The translations under genes and the position numbers were made by a program. The notes beneath the pieces are model-generated. The model was given only the letters and a program-made list of their open reading frames with translations, was not told the DNA's origin and did not search any database. Below, one piece after another: positions 4,650-52,473 of a stretch of 64,000 bases of DNA. The DNA is from Amphiura filiformis (Eukaryota > Echinodermata > Ophiuroidea > Amphilepidida > Amphiuridae). Positions within the stretch are counted from its first letter, which is position 1. Every line of letters starts with the position of its first letter. The stretch lies in the NCBI RefSeq assembly GCF_039555335.1, contig NC_092628.1, forward strand, positions 99,839,893-99,903,892. The letters are read 5' to 3'.

Positions 4650-7600
4650 CTACAAACGTTTCACTGGCTCTGCTTCACTGTGTTTGTTCTGCAGGCGAGG
4701 GAAATCTTGAAGGCACATCGGTAAGTACAGGGTCATCTCTTGAAGAATGTAACAATCTCGTTGGTTCCGTATGGCCTCGTTCTCCTCAGGTTGAAGAACA
4801 ACTTGACTAGTTGGTAGCAGGTCTAGGGTAATATCTAGCAAGGTCATCTATAAATAAGAATAAAGGATAGTGTAAGATATTTCATAACAGGTCATATATT
4901 TTAGAATTTTATTTTGGGATATAGGTAGTTGTTTATATTTGTCTGAAATGTGAAATGTGCGAGATTTCAATACCAACCGTTCTATCACACCCCAGCTAGA
5001 CGATAAAAGTTTCATCCGCACCGTTTAATTGAACAGAAAATAACACTACTATCTGCCATTACAATAGACCATTTTAAAAAGTACATTAATTTCCCATTTT
5101 AAGATAAACACTTACCACACTCTCCTCGCGGTTTAGGACTCTCTGTTTCATCAACTGTATGGTTTCAAAATCAACGGTGAAATCCTTGGGGCTGGTAGAT
5201 AATTGTTCATCTACAATAACGTGTCCCATAGCTTCTTTATAAATGTGGATGTTTGAGTGATGGGTTTTCAGTAGTTGTTCCTCCTGCAATGGTGTAACAA
5301 TAACCATGATTAATTGTATTACAAAGGTAAATTTTACTTTAGAGAAATAAATTTCTTTAGAGCTAAGGATTTATAAAAGGTGTTTCTGAAAATAAAACAC
5401 CATGTATTTTTTTTTCAATTGCCATATCAATGTAAGCTTTCTAGTTTCTCGTACTCGTTGCACATGTATAGATTTGGTTATGCTCGTGTGTATATGAAAG
5501 AACACACTGAAAGAGTTTATAGTTAAATAATACAAAGTAACTTACTGTCATCTGAATCCTTTTCGCAAGAAAAAGCTCAGCTCTATTTGGCATACCTGGA
5601 AGATCCACATTCTGACATATAGCTCCACCATTACGATCCATTTGCTGTAATGAAGAAAAAACACAAAGTAAATATATAGAATAAAAGTGTAATACATAAT
5701 ACTTGATGCTAAAACAACTTAGTCTTACTATTGTGCATGTTACCTGTTCTTGAATATGACTTTCATTATTATTTATTATCTCCGTCGAGTTCATCGTTTT
5801 AGCACAATATTTTACTTAAATTATTTTTAAATCTTTCCTGTCAAAGTTCTGAATACTTACATATTCTTCCAGGACTTTCCCAGCGTATTTAAACAAAGCT
5901 GACGTTTCTTCTATAAGGAGTTCATATTCCATATATACTTCAGGTAATGGTGGAGGATTGGTGGTAGGTGGTACTGGGGTAGCTTCATGGCTCTTTTGCA
6001 ATCTGGGAAAGTCTACCAATGGAATTGGAAGGTACAGGTACATTTCTTGAAGTACGTACAAATCGCGGATGTTTCGTACAGCTTCATTTGGTTCAGGCTC
6101 AAACAACACTGGTTCGGTTGGTGTTGGCAGGCTTGTGAGGTTCAATTCATACATCTATGGGTCAAATGATGAAAGACAATCGTTAAGTGATTTGATCGCT
6201 CTTTTGGATGCCAAAAAACAACAATATATTTATTTAGATAGCGATGTAGATAACAGTGCACAATAAACAATATAATATTGGTGTAAATATCATGTGAATG
6301 ATGACAATTGGTAATTCTTTTTTCTAAATTTTATAAAATATTATTAGTAACAACTGTCAGAAAAGTTTTCTGTTAATTGTAAGCCACATTAATGAGGTAA
6401 AATGAAATATTGGCCGCATAACTGTCGTGTTCTATGGGGTTTTAATATGATTGAATTTGAATTTTGTTGGTGTAAAGTGTAAGTTGGGACATGTGTAAAC
6501 ATTACAAATAATTGGAAGAATTGTCGTAAAATGATTGATTAATTGAATGATTAATTGATTTGTTGATTGATAGATAAATTAATTAATTGTGTACTTACCA
6601 ACACATCCAATCTGTCAAGAGCAAACTGAGTATAGTTCATAATCTTTTGCATAACTGGGAGAAAGTTGATTGGATCTGACGAGTTTTTCTCATCAAAATA
6701 CACTTGTTGTACGGCTCCTTTGAATGCAATAAGATTTTGGCGATGAACTGAGAGTAATTCTTCTTCAGTCATGTTTAGTCTCTTCAACAAAGGTAGGTCT
6801 GATGCACGTGGAAGCCCATCCATTGGCAGTAGAGGAATTATAATATCCGAATTCCCAAATCGTGTTGCTTTCTGTGAAAATAAAACAAAATGATAAACTT
6901 GTGAAAACCACTTCACAGGCAAAAAATGACCAAAAAGGTAAGGACAAAATGTGTTTTACTTGAAATGCTTTAAGCTAATGATATTAGTCTACTTGCTAGA
7001 TACTCTAGCTGCAAGCTGAACCTTTTAGAAATTAACTGATACCAGCATTCAAAAAATAGCATTCAAACGTGTACAGATGTATGCAATGAATTTAACCAAG
7101 AGTTGGTACTTACATAATTCTCGTAGAGGCTGCTTTGTTCTGTGGAAAGCGTTTGACAGGCAAGAATCAAGAATTCGTATAGGTCATCGATGTTAGTAGG
7201 CTCAGCATCCAGGTGCTCTTTGCCGTCGTCAAAATTACCCACAGAATTGAGTGATTTGTGAAGCTGAATCTTCGGGGTAGTGAGTATGCTGGTCTTGATT
7301 TTCTGAACTTTGGTGTGTTTCGCCTTGTGTATTGGGAATGCATTGCAACTCAGCGCAAACAGACCGGTAAATAAAACTGCAAATTTAAAAAGAGAAATAA
7401 CATGTAAGTAAAACAATTCATGAACTGATATTATAATAACTTGAACTCTTAGTTTAATATTAATATTATGGTGAAAACATTAAATTATTGCAAATCCCTC
7501 ACTGTCCATTGCATTTATTTGTCACCCAACTCGCTATACATTTTAAACTTCATCATTCTCATCATCGTGAGTAAATTTCTGGTTTTGTGCATATGAAATT

Positions 7601-9459: not shown

Positions 9460-10335
9460 AAGGTTGCGATAGTGACAAAAATATTTAGCTTCTCTGGTAA
9501 AAGAATAATTGATTAAGTGATTCGGTTATTAAATCGAATGTGTAGCTTGGTGTGTATTTTTCAATCGGTGGTTTAACGGGATTTTTTTCTGCTAATTTCT
9601 TCATGGCAATGGGATTGGTATTGATATGAATTTTAAGAAGCAAGAATTAACGCTATATTATATCCCTGTAAAATACTAAATCTAAATGTCAACCGTTTCG
9701 AATGAACGTGAGAACTGAAAATGACAATGCCAATAATAGTAAGCTTCATTCACTCCTACCTGCATGCGTTTATTCCGCAACACAAAAGAAACGCAATCTA
9801 ATGGAGTTTCAACATGGTTCTGGTTCTGCTTGAGTCGAGATCGGCAGACAACCCGTACTTCACCAAGTTCAGCGTGCGATCCCTTGTAGCACAACATAAT
9901 TATATCCTTTGTATCACCGGCCATATACGTGTTCTGTTCATATTCCACTCAATTGTAATTGCTCGAGATTTGTGCCAGCTACCCTGTAAACTAGGTATAT
10001 CCAATCCAGTATCGACACAAATAATGAAAACGATTGCATATCATGAAATGCAGCAACTAAAACAACAACCGCCTCTAATATCGAAGTGTGAATCAGAGTT
10101 GCTGACCGTAAAACTCCGTGTCATGATATTTGCATAACAAAAGTGATAACAGGTTAACGACCAAGTACGACCCACTTTTGCATGTTCAATGAAAATACAT
10201 AGTTGTAGAAAAAGTGTTAATATTGTATTCCATGAAAGAATGCATGTTGTTTTATCTTGCCCATAAAGAAGGACAAACATGTTCGTACTTAGCAGAAAAC
10301 AACATTACGTTACCAACATTTAGAATGCGTATTTC
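9460..10335. other. Intergenic, nothing recognised
   Basis: ORFs up to about 107 codons occur on both strands here. None has a recognisable domain, signal peptide or consistent splice context, and I do not regard them as genes. Confidence 0.35.
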
Positions 10336-10364
10336 TACCTCTCTCCCTCTCTCCGCCTCTCTCT

Positions 10365-10415
<51 letters not shown>

Positions 10416-10492
10416 TCTCTCTCTCCCCCCTCTCTCTCTCTCTCTCTCTCCCTAGTATTTCTCTTTCTCTCTTCATCACCTCTCCCATTGCC
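10336..10492. repeat. (CT)n microsatellite / polypyrimidine tract
   Basis: About 155 bp of nearly uninterrupted CT dinucleotides with CCT, CCCC and TCG interruptions. The Ser-Leu and Arg-Glu repeat ORFs on the two strands are translations of this tract. Confidence 0.95.
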
Positions 10493-10889
10493 TCTCTAGC
10501 ACTCTTAATCGGACTCTGTTAAGATGGCATACATTTTGTTACATAATCATTTCAAATCTATATTTAGCAAATTAAGCAGGGGTATTCAACAACAGTAATG
10601 CAAAATATTACAAGACGCTTCTGTATCCTTTTTTGCTTTCTATCTCGCTTTCTTAATTTTCCTTTCTTTATCTTTGTCTCTCGCATTTTCTGTTACTTAT
10701 GAGTTGCACTCATATTGTTATTACAGTAAGGTTGATTTTATTGATATTCTCCTTCTCGCTTTTTTCCTCGTTACTGTTTGTTCTTTTTTGTTTTCATTTC
10801 AAATTTTTCTTCAGCTTATTCTACATCTAATCTTTATTTATAATTACTATATATGCCAAAAAACTAGGTTTGGAAAAAATTAACTAATA

Positions 10890-11388
10890 GTGTGTGTTAA
10901 CTTTTGAAGATATGCCCTTTTTAAGAAATGCACCCGTTTTTCACCCTGTCTACGGGATGGGTCATGCTGTGGAGTGGCCTGCAAGATCACCAGACCTCAC
11001 ACCGCATGATTTCTTTCTTTGGCGCAAAATCCCCGGGGCAAAATCCAAAGCGACGTCTATGAGCGATGTCCACCAGCTAACCTCCAAGATCTTCCCAACC
11101 ATATTACTGTTCCATTCGCAAATATCTGGCGCACAAGGATGGTACGCAACGCAATTGATGCAATGAGAACCAGGGCTGAAAGCTTTATTCGTCAAGGAGG
11201 CAGCGAGGTAGAGGGCAGAGCAGCACAGTAAACTCACTTCAGTAGAGCACATGCCAAACCTTTCAGGGCTACCTTTCATTCGAAAGAGAGAAATGACTTA
11301 TGTTGTAAATAAAAAGAAAGCGAGAACTTGTCTAAAATAGGAAAAAAAGAGGGCGCAATGAGGGTTCTGTTTTTGCTGGGCCACCCTG
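10890..11388 (+). mobile_element. Truncated mariner-type relic
   Basis: It encodes the mariner transposase fragment VEWPARSPDLTPHDFFLW near 10967-11025, the block carrying the third catalytic Asp. It then shares an AACGCAATTGATGCAATGAG segment and AGGGCTGAAA with the better-preserved copy at 23201-24200. The right end is present (AAAAAGAGGGCGCAATGAGG, then CCACCCTG), but the left terminal repeat is missing. Stops and frameshifts make it inactive. Confidence 0.75.
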
Positions 11389-12265: not shown

Positions 12266-12284
12266 AATACATTAAACTAATATA

Positions 12285-12468: not shown

Positions 12469-12473
12469 GTAAT

Positions 12474-13190: not shown

Positions 13191-13199
13191 TTCATGTAC

Positions 13200-14964: not shown

Positions 14965-17900
14965 CTATTGTGAATGATGAGCTTCAAACTGGGCAAAGTC
15001 TTGCAGAATCATTGGCAAATATCGCTTCATACTGTGAAGAATCTTGAAATCCCGAACCATACGCTCAGTTTGTCCAGTTGCTTCTTCCAATGGCTGCACT
15101 GACGGTAAGGTATCGACTGGCAGACCCAGCTGTCCCATCTATAAAATTAATGATATTGATAAACATTGTTAATGTTTTAGAAAATAACGTTTGTAGTTAA
15201 GACTAGGTGTTCACAAGGCAATGACAAAAGATTGAAATTATCTTTTTCTAATATGTGACCGTACAGCACGAATGAGCCGTAAATTCCCTAGCTGGCGTGA
15301 CATCTGTCTCATTTTTATAGTCAAACACCAATCAATAATCCTAGTTGTTGAAGAGGATAATAAGCTTCTACCTCAGATGGCTGTAGAATTTTAATAGCTC
15401 TGGTCTTTGTTTGCTTTGGCTAATCCTGTTCAAGTGATGGGTTACCAGGCATTGTATTTTGTATAGGTATGTATAACCAACCATTAACAATGAGAGAACT
15501 TCCTTGAACCTCGTTTACTTGGGGTGATTTGAAATGACCGCCAGTTATGACTGTTTGATATTTATTGTGATATTTATTGTGGAAAAAGAGACACATGTAG
15601 AAACGAAAAAAAAAGCTACCATTTTGTTGAAGGAGCGAAGTTCAACAAACCATAACCCCGCTTCTGGATACCGTTTGAAGTCAAATAATATACCATTTTA
15701 AAGCTTATGATGTATATTTTCTAAGCACGAAATAAAACAAAATTTACCAAGGGAGGAATTTACGGCTCATTCGCCGTGTACGGTCACATATGTAGAACGA
15801 TGCATCACGTGGTTGACAAACGGAGGTGTTTAGGTACTTGCAATGTGCATCCAGATTGGACTGAACGGCAATAAAACATTCCTCAACCTACATAGTATAT
15901 CAGTCAATTGTCTGGCTACAAAAACGAATTCGGTTTCTAAATGTGTGTGTCAAATGATTAAGTTGTTGAAATTGCAAACAAACAATTTTGAGGTTATTTG
16001 CAGTTTTCACTCACCACATTCTCAATCAAGGACAGTACTCGTTCATTTCTCTTTTGCACCTCGTCAATTTTGTGGGTAAAGTCTGGAAGAGTTTGCATAT
16101 ACGCTTCATCTCGGAACACCTCGCCCAGGAGCTGCTTGTATCTGTATAAGTTTTGACGATGGATGGGTAACAGTTGGTCCTCCTGAAATGATAGTAAACT
16201 ATATATTTAGCTATAATGTTGAAATATGATCTGCATCAACGTAGATTTTTCAAATCATATCTTGTTCCGAAACTTGTTTTTTAATGCCAATTGAGTACAC
16301 ATCTAAATGGTACTGGCATTTGGCGGTGTTAGAACTGTATAGAAAAGGTTATTTCAGTTAGGTATCTTATAGAGTTACGGTTTGTTATAACGAAAATATG
16401 CACAAAATAATTGCCTTGTCATTTTGTACTTACTCGAAGTCGGCTCCTGATAACGGCAGAAAGCTCAACAAAATTAGGCAGACCTGCAATCTGTATTGGT
16501 GGATCAACTTCTATACCATGAAGTCGCTCTTCCATCTGGAAAGGGAATATAAAGGAGAAGTACATATAAGTTTTATCTATCTGTGAACTTCTTTTTCTTT
16601 TATATCGATCCATCTCTCTCTCTCCCTTATCCAATCTACCCCTTTCCATTTATTATTTTTCTCCTAGAGCTTAATTATTATCTTCGGTTAATCGTGTTCA
16701 TTGACAGCTCATGCAATAGTTTAGTAAGAAAATCAACTTGTGACTTATTAAAGATGAGGAAAATATCTTACATATTCCTCGTACAGCTCATTCAAATAGT
16801 GATTCAGAATTGTTGTCCTTTCAAGAAGTTGGTGTGATAAATTTTCTATCCTGATATGTGGTGAGACTGTGGTCACTGTCATTGGTGGTGTACTAGGTGG
16901 ATGCGTGCATTGGAGATACAAGAAATCCTGCAATGGTAGCTGGAGGTATAGATTCATTTCTTGTAGTATGTACAGACTCCTACGGTTTCTTTCATACGCC
17001 TTCTCCAAATTGTTCAATTTTATTTCCGGTACATCAAGGTCGTTGTGAATTACGTTCAACTGACTCATCTGTAAACACAAGCAGTCACATGTTTAAAGAT
17101 AATAATGAAAATGAAAAGAGTGATAATTATAATAATCATTAAGAAATAGATTGAAAAGGCATTCTCAACATAATAATAAATAAAACTCTTTCCATATTAT
17201 GTCTTCTTTTTTAATATTTCCTAGCGAATCTTATTCTGCTTAGCAAACTATGGGTTCTAGCTCTACTGATTTAGCTGATCCGATTTAGTTACATTTTCAC
17301 TCCCCCACCACCTCAACCACTATCAATAATCACCTCTCCAACTCCATACACACACCCTCATACGACCCCTCCCCACTAATATTCCCGAAGTCCAAATGTC
17401 CTCGGTGTGTTTTCATGTCAAGTGCTTAAAAAGTCGGTAAAACCGAACAAGTGTTAAAACGGTTAACGCTGCGAGGACATAAGCTATAGAAGGGGTAGTA
17501 GGGTATAAGACCTCATTTTCGCCTTTTAACGAGGTTTCTGTAAGGACAGGTGTTAATTAGGTCCTCGTTAAGCACGAGGTCCACAGTGTATCGGTGTGTT
17601 GTTATGTTGGAGTCCTCGAGAGTAATACAAACCAAACGCCCACATACACACCCCCACCCCACACACCTTTTTCAGATTTAATATACTTACCACGTTTAGA
17701 ATTCTGTTCGTAACAGACAGTGTGAGTGTCTCAAGAGTTTGCAATTCAGGTGTAAAATCCTTGATTGACTGGGATAGCGTCTCGTCATCGATGACTTTCT
17801 GTAAAACTGCTTTATATGCACGTAGGTTGGTCAGATGAGTGAGCAATAACTCACTCTCCTAGATAAATAATAAATACTAATTAATAAATATTAAAACATT

Positions 17901-19360
17901 TAAGAATCTTACTCAGGGGTGTGAGTGACCACAGATAAAAAAAAAATTTGGAAAGCTCCTGTACTTTTGTACAGACGAAGTGCCACAAAAGAGATAAAAA
18001 TCAAGATCAAAAAGTCTTAATTCAGATTTTAATCTGAACTCTCACACCCCCTGCTTACTTTAATAATATTGTTTAGGTACAGATTTGCCGTCATTGTGTT
18101 TATTAAACAGTATGAGATCCTCTTCAATTGACGTCTAACCATGATAGATATAATACAGATAATTTTCACGATATGAACGATAACCACTAAAAATTATTTT
18201 AAAAAAATGGTACTTCTTACTTCATTAGTACAGCATGTGTTTTGGACACCGAGATAAACCGACGCCGTGCTATTATACTTATTTAATACCAAATATCAAC
18301 AATATGTAGTTTGATCCAACTTGAGTAAAGCTTTAATACATTTTACTCACAGTCATTTTACGTCTGTTGCTAACAGTCATAGTGGAAATATCTGGTAGGC
18401 CGTCGATCTTCATAGCTGGCAGTACATTGTCAGGACTGATGTACCTGTCCGCTCGCTAAAAAATTAATAAGAGAAATATGACAATATTACAATAATGTAT
18501 GCGAGTGGATACGTAGAAGTGCATTATTCTGTACACTTTCTCGAGCAACAAGTGATACGCTTTTATTGTCATACACGAGAAAAAAAATCCCGTGATTTTT
18601 GCTATTTTAATAACAAAATGGCCATTAAAGTCCTTGTACTGGGATGTTTCACTCCCAACAATTATTATTAACCTATAATCAAAACACCTGGTTTTTAAAT
18701 CATGATCTTCTTCCATTTTTCTTCTGACTGTAGTTGTTCACTTACATATTCTTCATAGAGGTCCTTTTCGTGGTGCTCCAGGCTTAGTGTTGATTGAATT
18801 AGAAGACCATACTCGTCATAAGTGCTCAGTAGTGTCGCTTCCCTGCTTGAAACCCGGTGTGTTGGAGAACAATAGCAAGATGCAATGACGGAAATCAAGA
18901 ACAATGCTGAAAATAATCAGAATACATTTATTACTCTTGGTCATTTTATTATAAAACAAACACATCTAAACAATCTTGTAATTACAAGGTCCTTGATTTG
19001 AGTTGACGTAATGTGCGCTGCATAAAATGCAACCTTGGTGGTTGAAAGAAAAATAGTTTTAATTTCTGTTTGGTACAGTTTGGTTTAATTGTCCAAAAAA
19101 TGCGCGGCATATGTAAGTATGTCCCAAATTATCCCAGAGTCTTAACCCAAAGTCGATAGCTCATTTTCTAATTGAATTTGCCTTTTCAATAATATTTAAC
19201 AGCAACATCTAGTCAAGGTATTATTGTTTAAACTAATAATAATCAATTTTAAAATTGAAATAGTGATAATGATGGTTTATTCGCAACACTAAATATTTTT
19301 TTTATACCAACCGATGAGAAATAATGTAGGTCTCTTTCCATCTGGTGTTTGAGTTGCCAT
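14965..19360 (-). CDS. Gene 2: two-unit helical cytokine, CNTF/cardiotrophin-like
   Basis: Spliced gene, about 407 aa. Exons in transcript order: 19312-19360, 18746-18906, 18351-18455, 17691-17858, 16772-17068, 16434-16535, 16015-16182, 14965-15138. Intron 1 is phase 1 in the signal peptide (core LFLIALFLISVIA after splicing); the rest are phase 0. Donors are GTAAG or GTGAG except the weaker GTTGGT of intron 1. Unit 1: helix A ending DLYEEY, loop KIDGLPDIS, B/C exon ESELLLTHLTN to DDE and KDF, helix D LYILQEMNLYL then LQDF. After a Thr/Pro linker, unit 2: helix A ELYEEY, loop QIAGLPNF, B/C exon EDQLLPIHRQNLYRYK to RDE and PDF, helix D RDFKILHSMKRYLPMILQDF. The last exon was assembled by translating the minus strand directly and ends at TAG 14965-14967. 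It is a paralogue of gene 1 with the same unit order. I infer a secreted cytokine; receptor unknown. Confidence 0.78.
15250..15792. mobile_element. MITE in the last intron of gene 2
   Basis: Terminal inverted repeats of about 37 bp: ATATGTGACCGTACAGCACG with AATGAGCCGTAAATTCC at the left, and GGAATTTACGGCTCATTCGC with CGTGTACGGTCACATAT at the right. It is non-coding, sits in intron 15139-16014 and does not touch either splice site. Confidence 0.8.
16772..17068 (-). CDS. Gene 2 hinge exon: helix D of unit 1 + linker + helix A of unit 2
   Basis: 99 codons, phase 0 at both ends, acceptor TTACAG before ATG and donor GTAAGATAT. It starts MSQLNVIHNDL, carries helix D (YERNRRSLYILQEM, then LQDFLYLQ), a linker CTHPPSTPPMTVTTVSP, and the next helix A (LLERTTILNHYLNELYEEY). 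It corresponds to gene 1 exon 5861-6154, so the two-unit fusion predates the split of genes 1 and 2. Confidence 0.78.
17914..18053. mobile_element. 140-bp MITE in a gene 2 intron
   Basis: Ends CAGGGGTGTGAGTG and CTCTCACACCCCCTG are inverted repeats. CTTACT lies directly outside both ends and may be the target duplication. Inside are small palindromes such as CTGTACTTTTGTACAG. It sits in the intron between exons 17691-17858 and 18351-18455. Confidence 0.75.
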
Positions 19361-23200: not shown

Positions 23201-24200
23201 CAGGGTGTCCAAAAAAAAGAGGCCCCTCATTGCGCCCTCTTTTTCTCCTATTTCTGAAAAGTTGATTAAATATATTTTGGTATGTAAAGAATTCTTTAAT
23301 CATTAGCTTTAATAAACCAGTACAATTATTTCAATCGGCTCACAACTTTTGAAGATATGCCCTTTTGAATAAAAGTACTCGTTTTCACTCTGTCCACGGA
23401 TAGCAAACAGAGTGGTTGGGATGGCTCATGCTGTGGAGTGGCCTGCACGATCACCAGACCTCACACCACTTGATTTTTTTTCCTTTGTGGCAAAATCCAA
23501 GATCTTCGTAAACGTATTACTGAATGCATTCGCAAGTATCCGGCGCACAGGGATGGTACACAACGCAATTGATGCAATGAGAACCAGGGCTGAAACCTGT
23601 ATTCACCAAGGAGGCAACCAGGTAGAGGGCAGAGCAGCACAGTAAACTCACTTCAGAAGAACCAAAGACAAACCAAACAGCCTTTCAGGGCTACCTTTTA
23701 TCCTAAAAAGAGAAATGACTTATGTTGTAAAGAAAAAAAGAAGAAAAAAAAGTAAGAAAGTAAAAAACATAATAAAACAAAAAGGCATAAATAACCAAGA
23801 AAAATAAGTAATTCCAAGTAAAGCAAAAGAAGTCCCATTCGGCAATGTTCGGCATCCATTTTACCCACTATGACACTATTAACAAAATCCATTGCCATAA
23901 TCCACCGGTAAAGCCCATTCCATAAATAAAGTTATTTTGAGGAATGTTTGATATTCATGCATGGTATGTGTACTCCTCGCCAAAGTAGCCAAACCTTCTT
24001 CGTGGACAGAGTGAAAAACAGGTACATTTCTTTCAAAGAGCATATCTTCAAAAGTTGTGAGCCAATTGATATAATTGTTTGGGTTTATTAAAGCTAACGA
24101 CTCAAGGCTTCCTTACATACCAAAATATATTTGATCAACTTTTCAGAAATAGGAGAAAAAGAGGGCCAAATGAGGGGCCTCTTTTTTTTGGGTCACCCTG
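23201..24200 (+). mobile_element. Mariner-type element, non-autonomous, 1,000 bp
   Basis: TA dinucleotides flank both ends. The left terminus CAGGGTGTCCAAAAAAAAGA with GGCCCCTCATTGCGCCCTCT is inverted at the right as AGAGGGCCAAATGAGGGGCC with CTTTTTTTTGGGTCACCCTG. The similarity continues inward through GAAAAGTTGAT and ATATATTTTGG. A transposase relic with VEWPARSPDLTPLDF lies near 23432-23480 and the rest is frameshifted or deleted. It belongs to the same family as 10890-11388. Confidence 0.85.
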
Positions 24201-29840: not shown

Positions 29841-29913
29841 CGGAGTATTGTCCTTGTGCGTGTATGCTTGTTCGATTCGTGGCAGTCATTTTGTACATCG
29901 GTTATTAATTACT

Positions 29914-31004: not shown

Positions 31005-32964
31005 TTGGACTTTGATGACATGATGAAGAATTATTATGATTACGAAGCGGGTACTTCTGATCCTTTCATTAAAGGAAGACTCAAAACGTCTGTTCAGTTT
31101 TGGCGCTCAATTGGTGCAAATGAATTTGTAATAAGTATTATTGAGCAAGGATACAAACTTCCACTTATTTCATTACCAACATCCGTAGTTCTTATGAACA
31201 ATAAGTCTTCCATAGCTCATGCAGAATTTGTTTCTAAAGCTATTTCTGAATTAGTAAGTGCAGGGTTAGCAGTGGAAGTAAATAGTAAACCGACTGTAGT
31301 TAATCCACTGTCTGTTTCTGTGCATAAATCGGGAAAACTTAGATTAATCTTAGACTTAAGGCATGTGAATGTCCATATTTGGAAAGATAAAGTGAAATTT
31401 GATGATTGGCAGACTGCTCTTAGTTATATTTCAAAAGGAGATTTTTTATTTTCATTTGATTTGAAGTCCGGTTACCACCATATAGATATATTCCCCCCTC
31501 ATCAACAATATTTAGGGTTCTCGTGGTTTCTCAATGGTAAAATGAGATTCTATACCTTCACCGTTCTCCCATTCGGGTTAACATCGGCTCCCTATGTCTT
31601 CACAAAAACTTTGAGACCATTGGTAAAACACTGGAGAAAGTTGGGTTTTTCCTTGTTTTATATTTAGATGACGGTTGGTGTCGGGCTCCAGATGAAGAAT
31701 CATGTTCTATTATTGCTAAGAAAGTGAAGTCAGATCTGATTAGCGCTGGTCTTGTTCCAAATTGCGAAAAATCTGTTTGGGTTCCCACACAGCAGTTGCA
31801 ATGGCTCGGGTTGCTGTGGAATAGTAAAGATGGATATCTGCAGATATCTCATAGTCGGATTCAGGATATTATCGAGTCAATCAATTCCTTGATTTCTTCT
31901 CTGCCTAAAACATCTGCCAGGAAGTTAGCATCAGTCACTGGCAAGATTGTTTCAACCTTTCCTGTTTTAGGTAATACTACCAAGCTTATGACACGGTTTA
32001 TGCATCACGAAATTATTAAGAGAACATCATGGGATGATCTTTTTAATATTCCTTCCAGTAGTTTGAGTATTAACGAGTTGTTTTTCTGGAAGTCCAAGTT
32101 CAAAATTCCAGTTAAGCGTGCTTTTGCTAAGTATCTTGTTCCACATACCTTTGTTTTAGTGACGCCAGTAGTACAGGATGCGGAGCTTTCATTTTAGGTT
32201 CTGACGTCATCAGTAATCGGACCTGGGACGACACTGAAATATTGGAGAGTTCTACTTGGAGAGAGTTGCATGCCATTCTTTATGCTTTGATTTCTTTTTC
32301 TTCAAGGATTACTTCCAGTTCTGTCAAAGTGTTTACAGATAATAAGAATGCAGTTTCTATATACCAATCTGGATCCATGAATTTGAAATTACATGTTTTG
32401 AGTCTAGCTATTCACAATTTTTGTAGAGATCGGGCAGTGACGTTGGACGTACAGTGGATACCGAGAGAAGAGAATCAATTGGCAGATGAGATCAGTAGAT
32501 TTGTAGACTGGGACGACTGGGGCGTGTCATCGGCGGTTTTCTCTTTTGTAGATAACATTTATGGTCCTCACACAGTAGATCGTTTTGCCGATGAAATGAA
32601 CTCAAAACTACCTAAGTTCAATTCCAGGTTCTGGTGCCGAGGGTCAGATAGAGTCGATGCTTTTTCTTTATCTTGGGAAGGAGAAAACAACTGGATAGTT
32701 CCCCCGTTAGCTCTCGTCACAAAAGCTATTTTTCATTTAGTCGCTTCCAAAGCAGTAGGTACTTTGGTGATCCCTGTATGGCCATCTTCTTCATTCTGGC
32801 CCATTCTTTTCTCCAGATATAGTAGTGTGAGATATATAGTATCAAGTGTGTTTGAGATTACAGATTCTCGTGGTGTGTTTATTCATGGTTGTAACAACCG
32901 CTCATTGTTTGGGTCAGACACATTTCAAGCACCAGTTATGGTAATTAGGCTAGATGCTAGATAA
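31005..32964 (+). pseudogene. DIRS reverse transcriptase and RNase H, two frameshifts
   Basis: RT blocks: NPLSVSVHKSGKLRLILDLR, FLFSFDLKSGYHHIDI (first catalytic Asp) and FTVLPFGLTSAPYVFTK. Then YLDDG, the YxDD box, in a shifted frame at about 31660, and QWLGLLWNS. RNase H starts at SDASSTGCGAFILG in a second shifted frame near 32160. It continues in a third open stretch with WRELHAILYAL, VFTDNKNAVSIYQSG, VQWIPREENQLADEISR. Both shifts coincide with T runs and look like single-T losses, so either recent decay or assembly error would explain them. No aspartic protease is seen, as expected for DIRS elements. Confidence 0.82.
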
Positions 32965-33352
32965 ATTGCATCTGATGACAATTATAAATGTCGTGAAGCA
33001 TGAACATCAACATTGGGTGATGGGTAGTTCGATGGACAAATTGCCAATGGGCATTAAGGCCAATGGGCCAGGCGATGGGTTAGTCGCTGGGAAAAAATTG
33101 TGAAGAAAGTAGCCACTGGGCTAGGTATATTGAGACTGGTGTAAGAGATAAGTCACTGGAATAATATAAAAAGCCATAATTGCAAAGGAATATAATTATA
33201 TGTATATAGAATATGGGTTTTTGATGAATTGAGGACATTACAATTAAATTGGACCCGTATCTGTTTTGGCTTTAAGATGCGATTGCATAGCCAACGGCCT
33301 TGTTTTTGTTTTTGTTTTTGCTATTTCAGTTTACGTTCAACCCAAAGCACCT

Positions 33353-34351
33353 ATGAGTAAGAATAGTACCAACATGGCATCTCCTAACATTCCAAACGAT
33401 TTTCAAAGTGTTCTAAACCATGTGTTACAGTCTTCGAGAGCTACTTCTACATCTTCCAAGTACAATGCGGCGTTTGATTCCTGGGAAAAATGGGCAAGCA
33501 ACAGAGGTTTTCCATCACTCCCGAGCAATACTGAACATGTCGCAAGTTATTTAGTTTCAATGTTTCAAGAAGATGCACCGCTTTCAAGAATAGAGGCAGC
33601 GTTTTACGGTATTAAGTGGAGACATGATATTGCTAATCACGATAATCCTTGCGATTCAAAATTCTTGCATTTAGTTGTTGAAGGTTTAAAGAGAATTCTA
33701 TCAAAACCAGTTGTCAAAAAATCCCCAGTCTCTGCTTCTATGCTTCTAAAGATTTGTTCACAATTTGCATATCCTTCTGCGTCATTGCTGGATCTCCGCG
33801 TCAGTACGTTGTGCTTATTGGGATACGCGGGTTTTTTTAGGTTTAGTGAACTGGTAAATATTAAAAGATGTGACATTCAATTGCATGAAGAATTTGCTCA
33901 TATTTTCGTGGAGAAAAGTAAAACGGATATATACAGACAAGGTGCGTGGGTTATCATATCGGCTACTGGGAAAGTCACTTGTCCGGTAGCTATGGTGACG
34001 CGGTTCTTACAGTTATCAGGGTTACTGGAGAAAGAATTATCTGATCAATTTATTTTTTGTGGGCTTTCTTTTTGCAAGAAATCATCCTCGTTTAAGCTTA
34101 GGAACAAACAACTTTCATACACAAGAGCGCGCGAAGTATTCCGTGATGCTATAAAGAAGATAGGAGAGGATCCCAAAAAGTTCTCTCTTCATAGTTTAAG
34201 AGCAGGAGGTGCTACGGCTGCGGCTAACTTGGGCGTCCCAGATAGGCTTTTTAAAAAGCATGGAAGATGGCGTTCAGAGAACGCTAAAGATGGCTACATT
34301 CAAGATTCTGACGATGTCAGAAAATCTGTGTCTCTCAATTTAGGCATTTAA
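33353..34351 (+). CDS. DIRS tyrosine recombinase
   Basis: 332 codons from MSKNSTNMASPNIPNDF (the frame is open from 33266 but the upstream part is hydrophobic and unlikely to be used). An N-terminal SAM-like DNA-binding domain (SRATSTSSKYNAAFDSWEKW) is followed by the catalytic domain. The first Arg is in GFFRFSELVNIK, His and second Arg in HSLRAGG, then HGRW and the nucleophile Tyr in DGYI, giving the R-H-R-Y set. It would integrate the circular cDNA. No frameshift, so this is the best-preserved gene of the element. Confidence 0.88.
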   Translation: MSKNSTNMASPNIPNDFQSVLNHVLQSSRATSTSSKYNAAFDSWEKWASNRGFPSLPSNTEHVASYLVSMFQEDAPLSRIEAAFYGIKWRHDIANHDNPCDSKFLHLVVEGLKRILSKPVVKKSPVSASMLLKICSQFAYPSASLLDLRVSTLCLLGYAGFFRFSELVNIKRCDIQLHEEFAHIFVEKSKTDIYRQGAWVIISATGKVTCPVAMVTRFLQLSGLLEKELSDQFIFCGLSFCKKSSSFKLRNKQLSYTRAREVFRDAIKKIGEDPKKFSLHSLRAGGATAAANLGVPDRLFKKHGRWRSENAKDGYIQDSDDVRKSVSLNLGI

Positions 34352-34526
34352 TGATTGTTGTTATTATGTTTGTATAATCTAAAATGAACAATAAGCAATT
34401 GTATCATGACTATATTTTTGGCAAGTCAATAATTGATTCTTGATTAGTGTTAATAATAAAATATTGAGCATCCTAATGTTTTCTCCTGATTTTCCCGTTC
34501 TTTGATACACTTATGAAGGGGAGCTA

Positions 34527-34654
34527 GCCCTTAGCTGCTGCGGTAAGACGACTCCCCAGTACAAGGATTTCAATGTTTGTGTATATAACATGTGGCGCAA
34601 GCGCGTTAGAAAATGTTTTATTCGCGTTTAAGCAGCGCGTATTTAGCGAATAAA
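34527..34654 (+). repeat. DIRS repeat B1
   Basis: GCCCTTAGCTGCTGCGGTAA to TTAGCGAATAAA. It matches B2 at 34922-35049 with one obvious difference (GCGGTAAG against GCGATAAG). It overlaps A2 by AAA. Confidence 0.9.
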
Positions 34655-34826
34655 TGTATTTTCTATACAGAGATGAAGCATACATGAGTAAGCATTTATT
34701 GATAGTGTAATTGTTATCAATTAACAAAGGCGTTTCAGAGTTTGTTCACTCAGGCATGTAAGGTGATTCGGAAAGAATCTAGGCGTTGTCACTTGATGTC
34801 TTTCGCTCATAACAGCTAGATCGGTA
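34652..34826 (+). repeat. DIRS repeat A2
   Basis: Second copy of A1, immediately after B1. The B1-A2 junction copies the right-end/left-end junction of the element. Confidence 0.9.
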
Positions 34827-34921
34827 AATTTTCCAGAAGTGGGTAAGTTTTCAGATTTGATTTGATTCGGTAATAAGGAGGCCCACAATAAAGTCAGGCC
34901 TAGTACGTTTTATAGACTCCG

Positions 34922-35049
34922 GCCCTTAGCTGCTGCGATAAGACGACTCCCCAGTACAAGGATTTCAATGTTTGTGTATATAACATGTGGCGCAAGCGCG
35001 TTAGAAAATGTTTTATTCGCGTTTAAGCAGCGCGTATTTAGCGAATAAA
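34922..35049 (+). repeat. DIRS terminal repeat B2
   Basis: Right end of the element. Directly after it the inner LINE ORF2 frame resumes (KVKGCLPEWVNSEF). Confidence 0.9.
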
Positions 35050-37046
35050 AGAAAGTTAAAGGTTGTTTACCTGAATGGGTGAATAGTGAATTTTTGAGAC
35101 TAAGCAAAGATAGGGACTACTATTTTTCAAAAGCACATAAGACAAATAATGCTGAAGATTGGAGTAAAGCAAAGTCTCTTAGAAATAAAGTAAACAATAT
35201 GAAATATTCACTGAAAAAGAGTTATTGTAATGAGGCTATAAGTAACAACATAAATAATAGTAAAAATCTTTGGAAAACAATTAAGAAAATTATACCAAAC
35301 AAAACATCAAGTATACCTTCAGCAGTTGTTAAAAAGAATGGTAATTACTCAGGTAACAAAAAGGATATGGCAAATGAGTTCAATGAGTTTTTCACTTCAA
35401 TAGGTAATGAACTTGGGAGTAAATTTAATAATAACAATGATAATTATGTATGCACTTGTAATACTGTATGTTCTCATCAAAATCATAGTGTAAACAAATT
35501 TAGTTTTAGAGCGATATCTAATGAATTTGTTCTTAAACAAATAAGTAAAATGCAAAATTGTAAATCGTCAGGATTAGATCCATTCAATGTAAGGTTATTA
35601 AAGTTGGCTGCGCCTTTCATCTCAAAATGCCTTGTTCATATTTGCAACCTGTCTTTGAATGGGTCTACTTTTCCTGATGCATGGAAGAAGGCTAAAGTAA
35701 CTCCAATATTTAAATCGGGTGATAAAACTAATGTTAGTAACTATAGACCTATCTCTGTATTACCAATTGTATCAAAGATCATTGAAAGAGCTGTTCATGA
35801 TCAATTATATGAATATATGAGTAATGTAGGACTGTTATCAAATGCTCAATCAGGATTTCGTCCAAATCATTCCACAACAACAACCCTTCTAGATGTTCAA
35901 GATTACATTTTAAAGAATATGGATACAGGTTATGCTACAGGTGTTTTATTTATAGACTTAAAGAAAGCATTTGATACTGTCAATCATGATATTCTGATTA
36001 GGAAACTTAAACAATATGGGGTATATGGGGATGAATTATTATGGTTTAAATCGTACTTAAACAACAGAGAACAAACTGTTAATGTTAACTCAACTTTTTC
36101 TGACTTTAGGCCAATTGATATTGGTATTCCTCAGGGCTCAATTTTAGGTCCTTTACTGTTTATCATTTTTGTTAACTGTTTACCTAATGCTGTGTCTGAA
36201 TGTAAAACTGTAATGTATGCTGATGATACCTCTTTAATGTGTAAAGCTAAAAATGAATCTGATCTTAAAATTCAAATGGAGTCATGTCTAAGTAGGGTAG
36301 CTGAATGGTTCGAAGTAAACAAACTCACTTTAAATGTTGAAAAGACTAAGTTTATGATCTTTGGTACAAACAAAATGCTTGAAAAGTTCAACAATGTACA
36401 TTTATTATATAACAACAATGATATTGAAAGAGTAGATGAGTTTAAATATCTAGGTGTAAAATTTGATAGCAAAATGTCTTGGTCAGCTCATGTTGATAAT
36501 GTTAGTAAAACTATTTCCAAAAGAACTGGCATAATAAAACGTATAAAATATTTCCTTCCATACAAAACCACTGTAATGTTATCCAATGCTCTTGTTATTC
36601 CCCACTTTGATTATGGCAGCATGGTCTGGTCAAATTTTAGTGTAGAGTACCATAATAGGCTTCAGGTACTTCATAATAATTTAGCTAGAATAATTCTCTC
36701 AGCAGATATAAGGACACCAACTAATGATTTAATGAATACTTTGCAGTGGGTTAAACTTGATCAAAGATGGCATAATACTCTATTAATGACTGTTTTCAAA
36801 TGTTTAAAGAATGAATATCCATCTTACTTATCTTCTCAATTTGATTTTGTTCATGATAACCATAATCATATAACTAGAAATCATACTTCTAATACATTGA
36901 TTGTTCCAAAATTTAAATCAAATTCAGGTCAACGTACTTTTCACGTCAGGGCAGCCTATGCATGGAATTCTTTGCCACCAACAGTAAGAGCTCAGATGGA
37001 AAATATGAGTTTAGGCCAATTTCAGTCAAAAATTAAAGAAATTTAG
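35050..37046 (+). CDS. Reverse transcriptase part of inner LINE ORF2
   Basis: About 665 uninterrupted codons after the DIRS insertion. It contains the post-endonuclease linker (LRLSKDRDYYFSKAHKTNNA), RT blocks SSGLDPFNVRLLKLAAPFI, VTPIFKSGDKTNVSNYRPIS, GFRPNHSTTTTLLDV, GVLFIDLKKAFDTVNHDIL, IGIPQGSILGPLLFIIFVN and the catalytic MYADDTSLM. It ends with the CR1/Rex-type C-terminus (HVRAAYAWNSLPPTVR). The key Asp residues are present. Without its endonuclease half in the same transcript it cannot act as in an intact LINE. Confidence 0.88.
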
Positions 37047-43590: not shown

Positions 43591-43594
43591 TTAC

Positions 43595-44067: not shown

Positions 44068-47000
44068 CTAGCTCTGATGTGTTTCAGCAAGAGTTATGAA
44101 AGCCATGCGCGTTATTGGCAGGTATTCATCAATAGCTGCTAATATGAAATAGCCTCGTGTATTCCTTATAGCTTCGTTAGGTTGGTGTGATATAGTTACA
44201 TTTGGATGCACCTCTTCATCATCATCGTTCAAATATCCAAGCTCATATCGCTGTAACAAACATTTTGGCAAAAAAACATTCTTTTAGAATTAGCAATATA
44301 AATTAGCAGCATCAACCAAACACAAATATTCAGCCACTCTACATTGGAAAATCTTGGGTGCCTATTTTTAAACGAGCGCTTTTGATCCAAAATATTAAAA
44401 CACTTCAAAAACAGAAAGGCTCTACAAGTTTGAGTGGTATAAGCTTGATATGAACGTGCAGCATTTTAGTTTCTGCACGTGATGTGTTTTACCCAATCAC
44501 AGTGCGCGATTTTGAATGAGTCGTGAGGGTAATAGAATACGCGAATGTAACTAGACTACCGTTTGAAACAGAGACAAAAAGTATTATGTTATCGGGTTTA
44601 TTTCTAGAAAAGTATTATATTTCTGATCCGGTTTCAAAATACTGAAGTCGGCAAACTCTCTATTATGGATTTTTCTTTTGGAAAACCTTACCACTGTTTC
44701 CAGTTGGTTGATTACCCAGGACATAAAAATCTTTGCATTGGCGAGCTCCCTGTCAAATCTTATGATGACATCTGTAGAGTTGGCTTCATCTTCAATGACT
44801 TGCAGGAGTCCTTGGTAATATGCTCCTAGGTATTGCTGATGAAGTCTCTAGTTGTTCCTGTTCCTGTAATAAAGAAAAAGACCTTTCAGATTATATGTCC
44901 GATTACGACAACGATATAGCGGGGGAAAGGCTACCCAGCAGGTACATGTTAGGATTTCGACGTTGAATCAACGTTGATACAACGCGTCATCGAAGTTAGT
45001 TGAACATGTTGAAAGCAGGTTGAAATTTCAACCTAATTTCAACCAACTTTCAATGCAAACATTAAGAAGATTTGAAATCAGATTGAAGTCCATTTGCAAA
45101 TACAACGTGATTTCAACCTGATTTCGACGTCCGGACGTCCAAATTTTAAGCTGATTTCAACGTGATTTCAACGTCAGGTGTGCCCACTGGGAAGTAAGAA
45201 TGACTATTGGCTTATGATAACAGGCAACCAATAAAAGATTTCTATCACCCATAACAAAAGCTTTGTTATCCAGGTTTCAAAGGACCCGAAGGGTTTAGGC
45301 TTTAACTAACCAACTATACTGCTCCAAGAAAGTATCCTTACACTTGGAAAAATAATCACAATTTCAAACCTGAACCATATTGGGGTAATTTTTATGTTTA
45401 GTAGATGCACTGCACCAATGTGACTTCAAGAAGCAAAGTTATAAGCAATTGAATAGACGGAGGTCCAGTTTTAAAAGTGACACTCTGGCCTATTCAAAAC
45501 TCACCGACTAGACATTTGGTTTGAGAGTGGTAAATGGCTAATTTGTGTGTGCCTTTAATTTAAAACAAAAGGAACAAAAGAAACTGAAACAAACGAGCTA
45601 ACAAATAAAATGTAAGTTATGAAAAGTACAGAGAAGTAAAAACTGAAATAAATACTGCTCTAAATAAGGCTTCATTGAAGAAACTGTGTAGTCTCTTTGT
45701 TGCGCTTGTTGGAATCTTTTTGCGCCTTGTACATGTTGTATAGGCCAATTTGACACTTTTAAAACTGGACCTTTGTCTATTCAATTGCTTGTAATTTTAC
45801 TTCTTGATGTCACATTGGATTCAATGTGGTGTCATAATGTGCAGGATTAGATAGTGCATCTATTACAAAAACAAATTTACCCCAATATGGTTCAGTTTTG
45901 AAATTGTGATTCTTTTTCCAAGTGTAAGGATACTTTCTTGACGCAGTATTTCTTACAATCTACTGCCATATTAACATGTTAAGACATAAAGTATAACATT
46001 TGAGATTGTATTTTGAATGAATTGCCTTGCACTAGATGTACGCTGTTTAACTCTACATCGTACCATTGATTATCAAGAAATAGGCATAAAGATTTGAATG
46101 TAATTCTTTGGAAATTTCACATTTTGCAGAGCCCAGGTACATTTCACTCGCACTTCCTACTTGGAATTCATCACGAATATCATTTTAAATGATTCATTTT
46201 ATTAAATAAATTAATAGAGTCAACATTTTCCACATTTTTGGTATAGCTCTACACGGAACAAAAAACCCAGTTCAATGTGAAACGGCATAATATTGCTTTC
46301 TGGACAATGTTTTAAACGATCATTGTTTTCTGCCCTTGAATAACCTATGACCAAGATGGCGGTTTTGGTGATTGGATTGTCATTAGAAACTGTTATACAT
46401 CTCGATATTGACAGTTTTGAACTCACTGTAATATACTTTTTTTATCGGTAAATGGAAGGGACAATCATGTTTTATAACAGGACTTAAATGTTCACTAAAG
46501 TATTCTAGTCTAGTTAATTTCACATTACTGTACTGTGCTCGACTTTAGAAGTGATGGAAGTGTGCGGACAGCGGTTAGGGTCTTCTAAAATCTGGGGAGA
46601 GATTTCACGCCAAAATGGGCTATTGTGTGAGAAGCCTCCAAAAATGCGGGCAATGGGAGAGAAGCCATTCCAGATGGGGAGCCATTTATTGAGAACTCAG
46701 ACCTGGAAAATGTTTGGTCCATAACACTGCCGAAATCGGAAAAATGTGTCTAAATTGTATACAAAAATTGGGAAAAATGCACATTTGTTTAAAGAGACGG
46801 TCAAACAAGCCCTTTGCGCAGATACGTAATTATACCCGGGCCACGTGAGTATTAGTTTATTGTGGTACCATGGTTACACTATTAAACACTGGAAAATACC
46901 ACCTACCTCACGAGTACATCATAAGACTTCTTTTTTATCCACGATTAATGTAGTTCACTACATTGGCAATTTTTGTATTTATTTTCCATGAAACTTTTAA

Positions 47001-50000: not shown

Positions 50001-52473
50001 ACCGTATATCCCGTGTCCGTGAATTTGTATGAAAATTCTAGTTCCATCCACACGGATCGGATGTGATGATATGAAATATTCATAACCTCGTTAATATTCA
50101 TAACCTCATTAATATACGCGATACATGCGATCCAATCATTTTATTTATTTGCCAAAACGCAAACGCTGAAAGCGGTTACTAATATCAGCGTAAATATTTA
50201 GTAACCTCCGCGCACGCCGTGTTGGGCGTTGAATTCGTATTGGTCGTTCTGTTTTAGCCTAATCTGTAAAATCGATGGAATATGACGGTGATTGTTGAGC
50301 TATTATGCATTATATAATTCCTCCGCCATCAGTGTGATTCCATTCACTCCACAAATGAGTGGAATCAAACTCGCGTGCCGCGAAGGCGGAGGAGACTAAC
50401 ACTATAGTTGACGCTGACAAACACATATGCGTTAGTAATATATGTATCTGTTAAAATCCAGCATTGTTTGTAACTTATCACCGGCCATTGGTTTTCCTTA
50501 TGCACTCTCACCTGCTCACCCGCCTCATATTATACTAGTATCCTTCATTCAGAATCAACCTATTAGATTTGACTGAAATGGATCCATTATGGATCACGTG
50601 AACTCCGTAAAATATACTGTAACCTTCTAAAGCAGCCAACATGTTTAGTTAATCTAAATCTCTTTCTACAATTATTCAAATGCGCGTGTCACACACCTAT
50701 ATTCTCTGTGTACTATTTGTTTGTAAAAGACAGGAAATTGTTAAATTCGAAAAGGTTGGTTTTCCTGTATAGACTGAATCAAGTCTAGCTGGCTAGATTA
50801 TAAACAAACATGACCGTGGTAAATATCATGCCTCTTTATAAGAGTTATCTATTAAACTGATGCATTTTTTGTAAGACATCTATCGAAAGGGATTGTTTCT
50901 GGGTTTCTGCCATAAAACGTCCAATATCTATTCTGGAACATTGAATAAGTAAAAATGCGGACAAATCTGACTCCGAAATATTCAATATTATAGATTACAT
51001 TTCAATCTAAGTCGGTTTAAATGCTTTACTCCAATGGATTTGTTCCTGATCGCAATGGCTTAAATCTAGTCAATGTATGTCTCCTCTTTCCAGTGGTACA
51101 AAAAAGTACAAGCACGTCATAATTATTTACGCAAACCTCAAAAATCAGTGAAATTCAACCAAAGTTCGTAAAAGATAACCTCCCCCACCCACCCCTAAGT
51201 AGAACGGCGGCCGTGTAGGGACAATTTTTTTTCGCGAAAATGAGCACAAAGGATGGTCAAACGATTACATGAGCCGTTTGGTGGTTTCTTTATGCGCCTT
51301 AGTTATCATTAAAAGAGGACTAAAAGAGGCAGGACTAAAGGGGGTTGCATTTATCTACATTTCATTATGCGGGGGGTTAATTTGGTAACCCAGTTTTACT
51401 TTTCAAATCTTTTCAAGTTACATTGTTGAGTTGAATAAAGGCAAGTGGACAGGATTAGGATCAGGGTCATTGTATAAAATTGGCACTTGTTAAGATGAAT
51501 ACGCGACAGATATAAACAAAATATGAAAAGATATATACTTACTGTCATCCTGGTCATTGCCATTCTGTCTAATAGAGTAAGGCCTTCAGGAAACCCGTCC
51601 ATGCCAAAATCGGGTGTAGCGATATCTGGAAGATCGTTTCGATGTTGTTCCTGAAAAAAAAAGAGATTTCTGTTAACGTTTAAGTTTAACACACTTAGCA
51701 GTAAAATTTACTTTAAGTACAAAGACACTGCAAGTTATAAGGTTTCATTTATTGGTAACACACTACTACTAGTATTACTACTTGTTGCGATTTGGCGATT
51801 TGGTCGTTCACAGCATCCTGTGAATGGACGTGAGTGAGCTTTGGCAAAAATTGCATTCATCATTTCATAGCGAGCGTGTAGAAGGATTCAAATATCACAG
51901 GTATACTTTTGTAGGATTGTGGTTCTTGAGTTATGTTGTAAAGAGGGCTGAAACCACATCACCTTAAGTTTGTAAAACGTACATAAGTAATTAACAACAA
52001 TAAATCAGTGTTCCAAATATATGATTTGTAAAACATCATGGTGTTATATTTCAATAATATATTGATTTAGACAATGAAAATCTATCTTTTTGGATGTTTA
52101 GACCAACAATACTTAGTCAACGTTTAATGAGTACGAACAACTCCATAATATCTTAGATATTGTATACTCGAGACAAGAATACTAGTGGAAAAAGATAACT
52201 GAGCATTTAGAAGCATCATCATAACGATTACAGTGCAAACGTTCTAATACTTACAAACTCGTCCGTTAAATTACGAATACTGGTGTTCAGGGTGGCCGCT
52301 GTTCTTATAAGTATACTATAACTGGAATATATATTGCTTGAAGGTCTGCTAGTCGAATGTTCCGTACTGGTAACTGGTGTTGGATATGAAATGACTACCT
52401 TCCTTGTAAGTATAAACCCTAAAACTGAAAACAAAAGATGAAACAAAATTGAACTTCCTGAATAACAGTGCAT
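44068..52473 (-). CDS. Gene 3: single-unit helical cytokine, possible frame defect
   Basis: Exons in transcript order: 52255-52473, 51543-51650, 44692-44847 (or to 44863), 44068-44250; about 220 aa. Exon 1 encodes a hydrophobic leader (SILFHLLFSVLGFIL) and helix A ending RNLTDEF. An alternative start uses a 10-nt exon 52560-52569 (MRT plus 1 nt) spliced to 52424, which restores the phase-1 signal-peptide intron of genes 1 and 2. Exon 2 is the A-B loop (FGMDGFPEGLTLLDRM, ending RMT). Exon 3 is helices B/C (HQQYLGAYYQGLLQVIEDE). Exon 4 is helix D (NEAIRNTRGYFILAAIDEYL, then ETHQS and stop). Only one unit is present. The large intron (44864-51542) is packed with repeats. The B/C exon has a frame problem described separately, so the gene may be decaying or use a shifted acceptor. 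Confidence 0.65.
44692..44863 (-). CDS. Gene 3 helix B/C exon with frame conflict
   Basis: From the expected acceptor (TTACAG before GAACAGGAACAACTAGAG) the exon would be 172 nt, that is 57 codons plus 1 nt, against exactly 56 codons in the equivalent exons of genes 1 and 2. Read from that acceptor in phase 0 it soon hits stops. An AG at 44848-44849 (CTAG before AGACTTCAT) would give a 156-nt phase-0 exon encoding RLHQQYLGAYYQ onward but would lose the conserved EEQL start. It is either a 1-nt insertion in a dying gene, an assembly error, or a shifted acceptor. The donor (GTAAGG) and the rest are well preserved. Confidence 0.6.
44934..45191. mobile_element. MITE made of TTTCAACGT-type subrepeats
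   Basis: Ends CCCAGCAGGTAC and GTGTGCCCACTGGG are imperfect inverted repeats. The interior repeats variants of TGATTTCAACGT and GTTGAAATTTCAACC on both strands, so it can fold into many small hairpins. It lies in the large gene 3 intron, about 70 bp upstream of the B/C exon. Confidence 0.7.
45317..45948. mobile_element. Foldback element with ~190-bp arms in the gene 3 intron
   Basis: The left arm (TACTGCTCCAAGAAAGTATC, CTTACACTTGGAAAAA, TTGAATAGACGGAGGTCC) is inverted at the right (GGACCTTTGTCTATTCAA, TTTTTCCAAGTGTAAGGATA with CTTTCTTGACGCAGTA). The arms are diverged. The spacer of about 230 bp is A-rich and non-coding. Confidence 0.75.
46162..47000 (+). repeat. Intronic duplication, copy 1
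   Basis: Similar in direct orientation to 47661-48790. Landmarks: GAATTCATCACGAAT, AGTCAACATTTTCC, ACCAAGATGGCGG, GGTGATTGGATTGTCATTAG, GGGGAGAGATTT, CACGTGAGTATTAGTTTATT with GTGGTACCATGG, and CACGATTAATGTAGTTCAC. Inside gene 3 intron 2. Confidence 0.8.
47661..48790 (+). repeat. Intronic duplication, copy 2
   Basis: Partner of 46162-47000 with the same order of landmarks. Two extra segments are present here (about 48040-48230 and 48660-48730). The copies are clearly diverged, so the duplication is not recent. Confidence 0.8.
49188..49616. mobile_element. MITE with C-rich internal tandem units
   Basis: Ends AAGGGCTGTGCAATAATTAT and AATTATTGCACAGCCCCT are inverted repeats. Inside, a ~33-bp unit (CTCGGC, GCCAAAAATCGCTTGCCCCC) recurs on both sides of a non-repetitive centre, at about 49240-49330 and 49490-49560. 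Poly-C/G runs make it prone to misassembly. Still within gene 3 intron 2. Confidence 0.75.
49620..51540. other. 5' part of gene 3 intron 2, no exon seen
   Basis: Nothing coding is recognised. A short GC-rich foldback lies at about 50320-50392 (TCCTCCGCC paired with GGCGGAGGA, inner GATTCCATTCACTC with GAGTGGAATC). Confidence 0.4.

Follow-up and report, generated by a model that had tools for sequence, protein, structure and literature searches.

Three tandem genes in a brittle-star genomic window (the whole stretch of DNA that was analysed, 64,000 nucleotides) carry five copies of a domain of ~175 residues. Judged from sequence, this cluster probably encodes secreted class I helical cytokines of an echinoderm, related by descent to vertebrate CNTF and CLCF1. 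Two of the genes encode two domains in a single chain.

Gene structure and domain repetition

The three multi-exon genes on the minus strand described in an earlier note were confirmed, their exons being located and spliced with GT-AG sites. The count of three units given there holds for genes and not for domains, which number five since G1 (7376-4653, minus strand, 430 residues mapped) and G2 (18906-14968, minus strand, 390 residues mapped) carry two each; G3 (52424-44071, minus strand, 204 residues) has a single domain. Each domain follows the exon plan leader and helix A, AB loop, helices B and C, CD loop and helix D, where the helix names are inferred via alignment with CNTF. The mapped exons are as follows.

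G1, two domains
7114..7376, minus strand: first mapped exon, with the leader end (phase-1 acceptor) and domain 1 helix A
6599..6871, minus strand: fused exon, domain 1 AB loop and helices B and C; P0001 (see below) matches from MDGLP onward
5861..6154, minus strand: bridging exon, domain 1 CD loop and helix D, Pro/Thr linker, domain 2 helix A
5546..5644, minus strand: domain 2 AB-loop exon
5116..5283, minus strand: domain 2 helix B/C exon, 168 nt
4653..4847, minus strand: last coding exon, domain 2 CD loop and helix D, then TAG
G2, two domains
18746..18906, minus strand: first mapped exon, with the leader end (phase-1 acceptor) and domain 1 helix A
18351..18455, minus strand: domain 1 AB-loop exon
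17691..17858, minus strand: domain 1 helix B/C exon, 168 nt
16772..17068, minus strand: bridging exon, domain 1 helix D, Pro/Thr linker, domain 2 helix A
16434..16535, minus strand: domain 2 AB-loop exon
16015..16182, minus strand: domain 2 helix B/C exon, 168 nt
14968..15138, minus strand: last coding exon, domain 2 helix D, then TAG
G3, one domain
52255..52473, minus strand: leader and helix A, beginning at an in-frame ATG (52473) or at a phase-1 acceptor (52424)
51543..51650, minus strand: AB-loop exon
44692..44847, minus strand: helix B/C exon; acceptor uncertain, possibly degenerate
44071..44250, minus strand: last coding exon, helix D, then TAG

The mapped introns are GT-AG and of phase 0, the first mapped exon of every gene is compatible with a phase-1 acceptor within the leader, and the helix B/C exon is 168 nt long in three of the five domains. 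Signal peptides shared by the genes had also been proposed, and have partial support: a hydrophobic stretch does open the first mapped exon in all three, while an in-frame ATG is present in G3 alone, no starting exon with an ATG being selectable for G1 and G2. N-glycosylation sequons (four in G1, one in G2 and four in G3) fit secretion. The intron between the AB loop and helices B and C is absent from G1 domain 1 (fused exon 6599-6871) and retained in the other four domains. At the G3 B/C exon (44692-44870, minus strand), which is separated from the preceding exon by an intron of 6.7 kb, the homologous start EQEQL lies out of frame behind a good acceptor, and the open frame requires an acceptor a few bases further downstream; this exon start is due either to a shifted splice site, to decay or to an assembly error.

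In the bridging exons of G1 and G2, no stop interrupts the stretch from domain 1 helix D to domain 2 helix A. Because the helix-D exon reads through a Pro/Thr-rich linker into helix A, the two domains belong to one chain, and since no dibasic cleavage site is found in the G1 and G2 linkers, this chain probably stays joined. Among the matches listed by a search of 5.8 billion proteins, in which the 7998 candidates with the most words in common were scored, there is one relative, P0001. This uncharacterized protein comes from Amphiura filiformis and covers 76% of G1 at 94% identity (E 1.4e-177). It joins exons from within 6599-6871 through 4653-4847, matching the G1 splice, and carries domain 1 (from the AB loop, where it begins, without the leader and first helix), the linker and domain 2 as one protein. 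The invertebrate source suspected in the earlier note is thus a brittle star. With the heterozygosity of A. filiformis given as 3.22% (PMC11310086), the window may represent a different haplotype of this species or come from a near relative. Relatives in other echinoderms were not among the matches listed by three database searches (7998 scored candidates in one; best 120 of 211 in another).

Pairwise identity among the five domains is 22-39%, with 19 invariant columns that include two arginines and a YL pair in helix D. Exon-versus-exon tblastn gave E-values down to 2e-17. Exon HMMs run against the 2088 ORFs of the window recovered all five B/C exons at 82-100 bits (E at most 2e-24), all five D exons at 96-110 bits (E at most 1e-28), and no further domain copy, the next-best ORF scoring 11.0 bits (E 0.037). 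The five-fold repetition is far beyond chance. In five-domain trees, the two second domains pair with FastTree (support 0.52) and the two G2 domains pair with IQ-TREE (support 45), which leaves the order of events, fusion first or duplication first, unsettled.

Several other features were observed in the window. A LINE-type element on the plus strand (28633-37046), with PHD and endonuclease at 28633-29724 and reverse transcriptase at 35049-37046, has been interrupted at ~29.67-35.05 kb by a tyrosine-recombinase retroelement, which we take to be of the DIRS/Ngaro-like type. The latter encodes reverse transcriptase, RNase H and a Phage_integrase-type recombinase (33248-34351), and has direct repeats of 175 nt that are 100% identical (29666-29840 and 34652-34826) and a second repeat pair of 128 nt at 99% (34527-34654 and 34922-35049); its insertion is recent. 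Two similar transposase-end remnants on the plus strand (10891-11166 and 23373-23645; AVEWPARSPDLTP...) are presumably mariner/Tc1-like. A long (CT)n-type simple repeat at 10330-10500 creates artificial ORFs in several frames. Between 53000 and 64000, on both strands, there is no notable gene-like ORF among those of 50 aa or more, and the exon HMMs detected no additional cytokine exons.

Profile comparison with CNTF and CLCF1

The CNTF/cardiotrophin-like family call of the earlier note had been made by eye, and is supported by a blind Pfam scan and by a controlled profile comparison. In the Pfam-A scan, CNTF (PF01110) was the top match of G2 domain 1 (E 8e-4, 19.3 bits), with a collinear alignment (58-183 to 38-165) covering the AB loop and helices B, C and D. 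This best score lies below the curated Pfam CNTF cut-off of 22.7 bits, and the CNTF match was absent from the scan for the other four of the five domains. For scale, the Pfam CNTF model gives human CLCF1 itself 24.0 bits, and phmmer searches of the PDB with human CNTF or human CLCF1 do not bring up the other of the two at E-values up to 10. The identity of G1 domain 1 to six CNTF/CLCF1 rows is 19-22%, and NCBIfam gave no relevant match. In a phmmer search of the PDB with G2 domain 1, an unrelated protein came first (E 0.072) and CNTF took the next two places (E 0.17 and 0.23), a ranking that is suggestive only.

Profiles were compared with hhalign, using mammalian CNTF/CLCF1 reference sets taken from the best 120 of 211 proteins (14 sequences, 11 of them in set A7 and 6 in set A8). 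The five-domain profile matched the 14 CNTF/CLCF1 sequences with a probability of 97.0% (score 72.2, 168 columns) and the 11-sequence CNTF+CLCF1 set A7 with 96.2% (163 columns), compared with 86.7% for eight CNTFs alone and 93.3% for six CLCF1s alone. The reversed family profile scored 15.5 against the real 72.2, and 100 column-shuffled profiles had a mean of 12.2 and a maximum of 21.6. Among the single families proposed for comparison in the earlier note (CNTF, CTF1, CLCF1, LIF, IL-6, GH and EPO), CNTF and CLCF1 stand out: human CNTF scored 42.7 (probability 86%; maximum of 40 shuffles 20.6) and human CLCF1 43.5 (probability 87% over 163 columns; maximum of 40 shuffles 18.9). CT-1 reached 26.7 (maximum of 40 shuffles 15.5) but with a probability of 12% over 49 columns. 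Scores within the shuffle range were obtained for LIF (13.2), G-CSF (16.3), GH (14.1), EPO (11.1), leptin (11.2) and ferritin (12.8); the shuffle maxima for these and for IL-6 were 17.1-22.1 (40 shuffles each). IL-6, at 18.7 and a probability of 1.2%, was just over its own shuffle maximum of 17.1, and with HMMER 6 of the 1377 reported IL-6 shuffles equalled or beat the IL-6 score.

Individual domains were scored with a combined CNTF+CLCF1 HMM, giving 15.7 bits for G1 domain 1, 11.3 for G1 domain 2, 24.0 for G2 domain 1, 19.1 for G2 domain 2 and 12.4 for G3. With 4000 shuffles made per domain, none of those reported (2765, 3476, 3505, 3373 and 2905, in the same order) reached the real score, although the margin is narrow for G1 domain 2 (best shuffle 10.0) and G3 (best shuffle 11.6). 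With the CNTF-only HMM, G2 domain 1 alone beats all shuffles, and with the CLCF1-only HMM this is true of the two G1 domains alone. Conversely, under the five-domain HMM, 12 of the 14 CNTF/CLCF1 sequences top all their reported shuffles and the remaining two top all but one. The combined model A7 found seven matches up to E 10 among 177,635 PDB sequences, all of them CNTF, CLCF1 or IL-27 alpha; at PDB scale the domains have E-values of 0.002 (G2 domain 1), 0.16 (G1 domain 1), 0.3 (G2 domain 2), 3.6 (G1 domain 2) and 7.3 (G3), the lists being not strictly comparable since the domain E-values were run with HMMER filters off and the PDB run without that option. The values for G1 domain 2 and G3 are not significant by themselves. 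At the level of sequence profiles, the relatedness to CNTF/CLCF1 over the whole domain is specific.

Intron positions, receptor-contact motifs and alternative explanations

In an alignment made blind to introns, the phase-0 intron that closes the helix-A exon lines up directly behind CNTF Tyr38 in each of the five domains, and the single coding intron of human CNTF, as we understand it, lies after codon 38. Profile alignments gave the same Tyr pairing, whereas a smaller four-sequence alignment put helix A elsewhere on CNTF; it is thus from the larger and the profile alignments that the Tyr38 match derives. The intron before helix B follows CNTF Thr68 in three of the four domains having one, and in G3 it follows residue 71. 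Behind helix C, the intron comes after CNTF Leu126 in five of five. Exon-intron structure has earlier been reported as a means of finding or supporting cryptic helical cytokines, in that case of class II (PMC8863823, PMC2654155). To help choose an alignment of exon fragments (A9), 1400 and 3562 trial sets were scored on how well they agreed with A1; three other fragment alignments (A4, A6 and A10) were rejected, their fragments being misplaced. In a helical-moment test, fewer than 2% of 1000 shuffles reach the real value in 4 of the 20 helix segments, with up to 86% doing so in the others.

There is no cysteine among the invariant columns, and G3 has none. We know of no conserved disulphide framework in the CNTF branch, which the lack of an invariant cysteine fits. 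At the start of helix D, an FXXK motif is described as the LIFR anchor in CNTF, CLCF1 and LIF, and a site-3 Trp in its place in IL-6, IL-11 and p28, the site-3 receptor being LIFR or gp130 (PMC10022904). FXXK is absent from the five domains, which have A, A, Y, T and A in the F column and N, N, N, M and N in the K column; of six vertebrate rows, four have F (two marsupial CNTFs have L) and all six have K. The site-3 Trp is likewise absent from the aligned column in the five domains, and two invariant arginines lie near the head of helix D, where FXXK would sit. Since both FXXK and Trp are lacking, we classify the cluster neither as orthologous to CNTF nor as coding for LIFR-type ligands. It would instead represent a related lineage, in which a second signalling receptor, if any, must be contacted differently.

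The missing FXXK also suits another origin, in which the domains belong to an independent long-chain class I cytokine outside the CNTF/IL-6 branch and resemble CNTF through the shared bundle only. A hand-made consensus, whose sole Pfam match is IL11 (E 0.022) and not CNTF, speaks for this origin, as does a hybrid profile with weak matches to IL-27 alpha, IL-11 and G-CSF amid unrelated proteins. However, the scores of CNTF and CLCF1 are roughly double the highest of their shuffles, whereas LIF, G-CSF, GH, EPO and leptin stay within the shuffles and IL-6 is barely above them, and the helix-A intron aligns after CNTF Tyr38 in every domain; we therefore regard an origin outside the branch as unlikely.

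It seems very unlikely that the cluster is an echinoderm-specific family of secreted helical proteins that are not cytokines and are alike through chance and composition, given the specificity, shuffle, reversal and column-shuffle controls and a profile match that is collinear from helix A to helix D. What such a family would account for is the Pfam score under the cut-off, the five-domain HMM, which up to E 10 matched no cytokine in the PDB and only unrelated proteins (best E 0.21), and the lack of fold support from AlphaFold, which was run on P0001 alone without an alignment and returned an unusable model (pLDDT 36.5). The out-of-frame start of the G3 B/C exon behind its 6.7 kb intron, the intron lost from G1 domain 1 and the database protein of G1 without its 5' part could be taken as signs of decaying gene copies without function, but this is most improbable with G1 and G2 open throughout, with consensus splice sites, and with the Amphiura protein matching 76% of G1 at 94% identity. 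A secreted cytokine cluster sharing ancestry with CNTF and CLCF1 is the explanation that we prefer.

Proposed role and comparison with known systems

As secreted CNTF/CLCF1-related cytokines, the products would each consist of domains folded as four-helix up-up-down-down bundles. Once secreted, they would bridge gp130/Domeless-type receptors on target cells and thereby activate JAK-STAT signalling. The tandem products of G1 and G2 would be covalently bivalent ligands, which may tether a pair of receptor complexes or expose two distinct surfaces for receptor binding. The JAK-STAT genes of A. filiformis are reported in expression cluster A9, on from 48 h post amputation and throughout regeneration (PMC11310086). 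Since these genes are active from an early stage and for the whole of arm regrowth, the cluster would most likely serve as a signal in wounding or regeneration. The terms 'cytokine', 'interleukin' and 'CNTF' are not found in the main text of the same paper. In the sea urchin, an IL6R-like gene has been reported (PMC13203501); an account of the same animal gives no apparent cytokine receptor system (PMC3296744). We further hypothesize, as a proposition with about as much for it as against it, that the CNTF/CLCF1 branch is older than vertebrates and was present in the deuterostome ancestor, and that in brittle stars it gave rise to covalently linked double cytokines which cross-link gp130-like receptors, possibly for regeneration. 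The ligand long missing from the IL-6-receptor/JAK-STAT pathway of echinoderms would in that case be identified.

In two published surveys, no invertebrate IL-6-family ligand is reported (PMC13203501, which included echinoderms and used BLAST cut-offs of E 1e-5 and 30% identity; PMC8226699), and the rise of the family is placed in fish or other vertebrates (PMC13203501, PMC8226699). The cut-offs of the former (E 1e-5, 30% identity) would probably miss the brittle-star family. JAK and STAT have been traced back to sponges (PMC13203501), which makes the ligand the missing piece in non-insect invertebrates. No echinoderm CNTF-like gene was among the matches listed in the open-access PMC literature. 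If our interpretation is true, CNTF/CLCF1-type ligands originated no later than in the common ancestor that echinoderms share with vertebrates, and there is a concrete candidate for the signal upstream of JAK-STAT in brittle-star arm regeneration.

Among echinoderms, a molecule from the sea star Asterias forbesi was reported by Beck and Habicht in 1996 under a title that calls it IL-6-like. The Pfam scan of the five domains returned no Unpaired family match up to E 10, and the Pfam library presumably includes an Unpaired model. Insect Unpaired (Upd) proteins are invertebrate JAK-STAT ligands too, and Upd3 is described as mainly alpha-helical (PMC7378365). IL-11, IL-27 p28 and G-CSF resemble the cluster in weak consensus or hybrid-profile matches (E 0.014 to 1.2), but G-CSF is at noise level when compared singly.

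CLCF1 (PF06875/PF01110) has a leader in common with the cluster, and the helix D pattern (L/V)LQEM...DFxRL found here resembles CLCF1 LLKEL...DFNRL. It differs in having one domain and, as reported, three exons (PMC8780587), and its F178/K181 FXXK site (PMC10022904) has no counterpart in the cluster. With CNTF (PF01110) the cluster shares DG(L/M)P in the AB loop and LQE(L/M) in helix D, whereas it differs in its echinoderm source, its hydrophobic leader, its four mapped exons per domain and the lack of FXXK. CNTF itself is made without a signal peptide. The cluster also differs from CNTF in the two domains per chain of G1 and G2, and this fused design would amount to a natural linked double cytokine.
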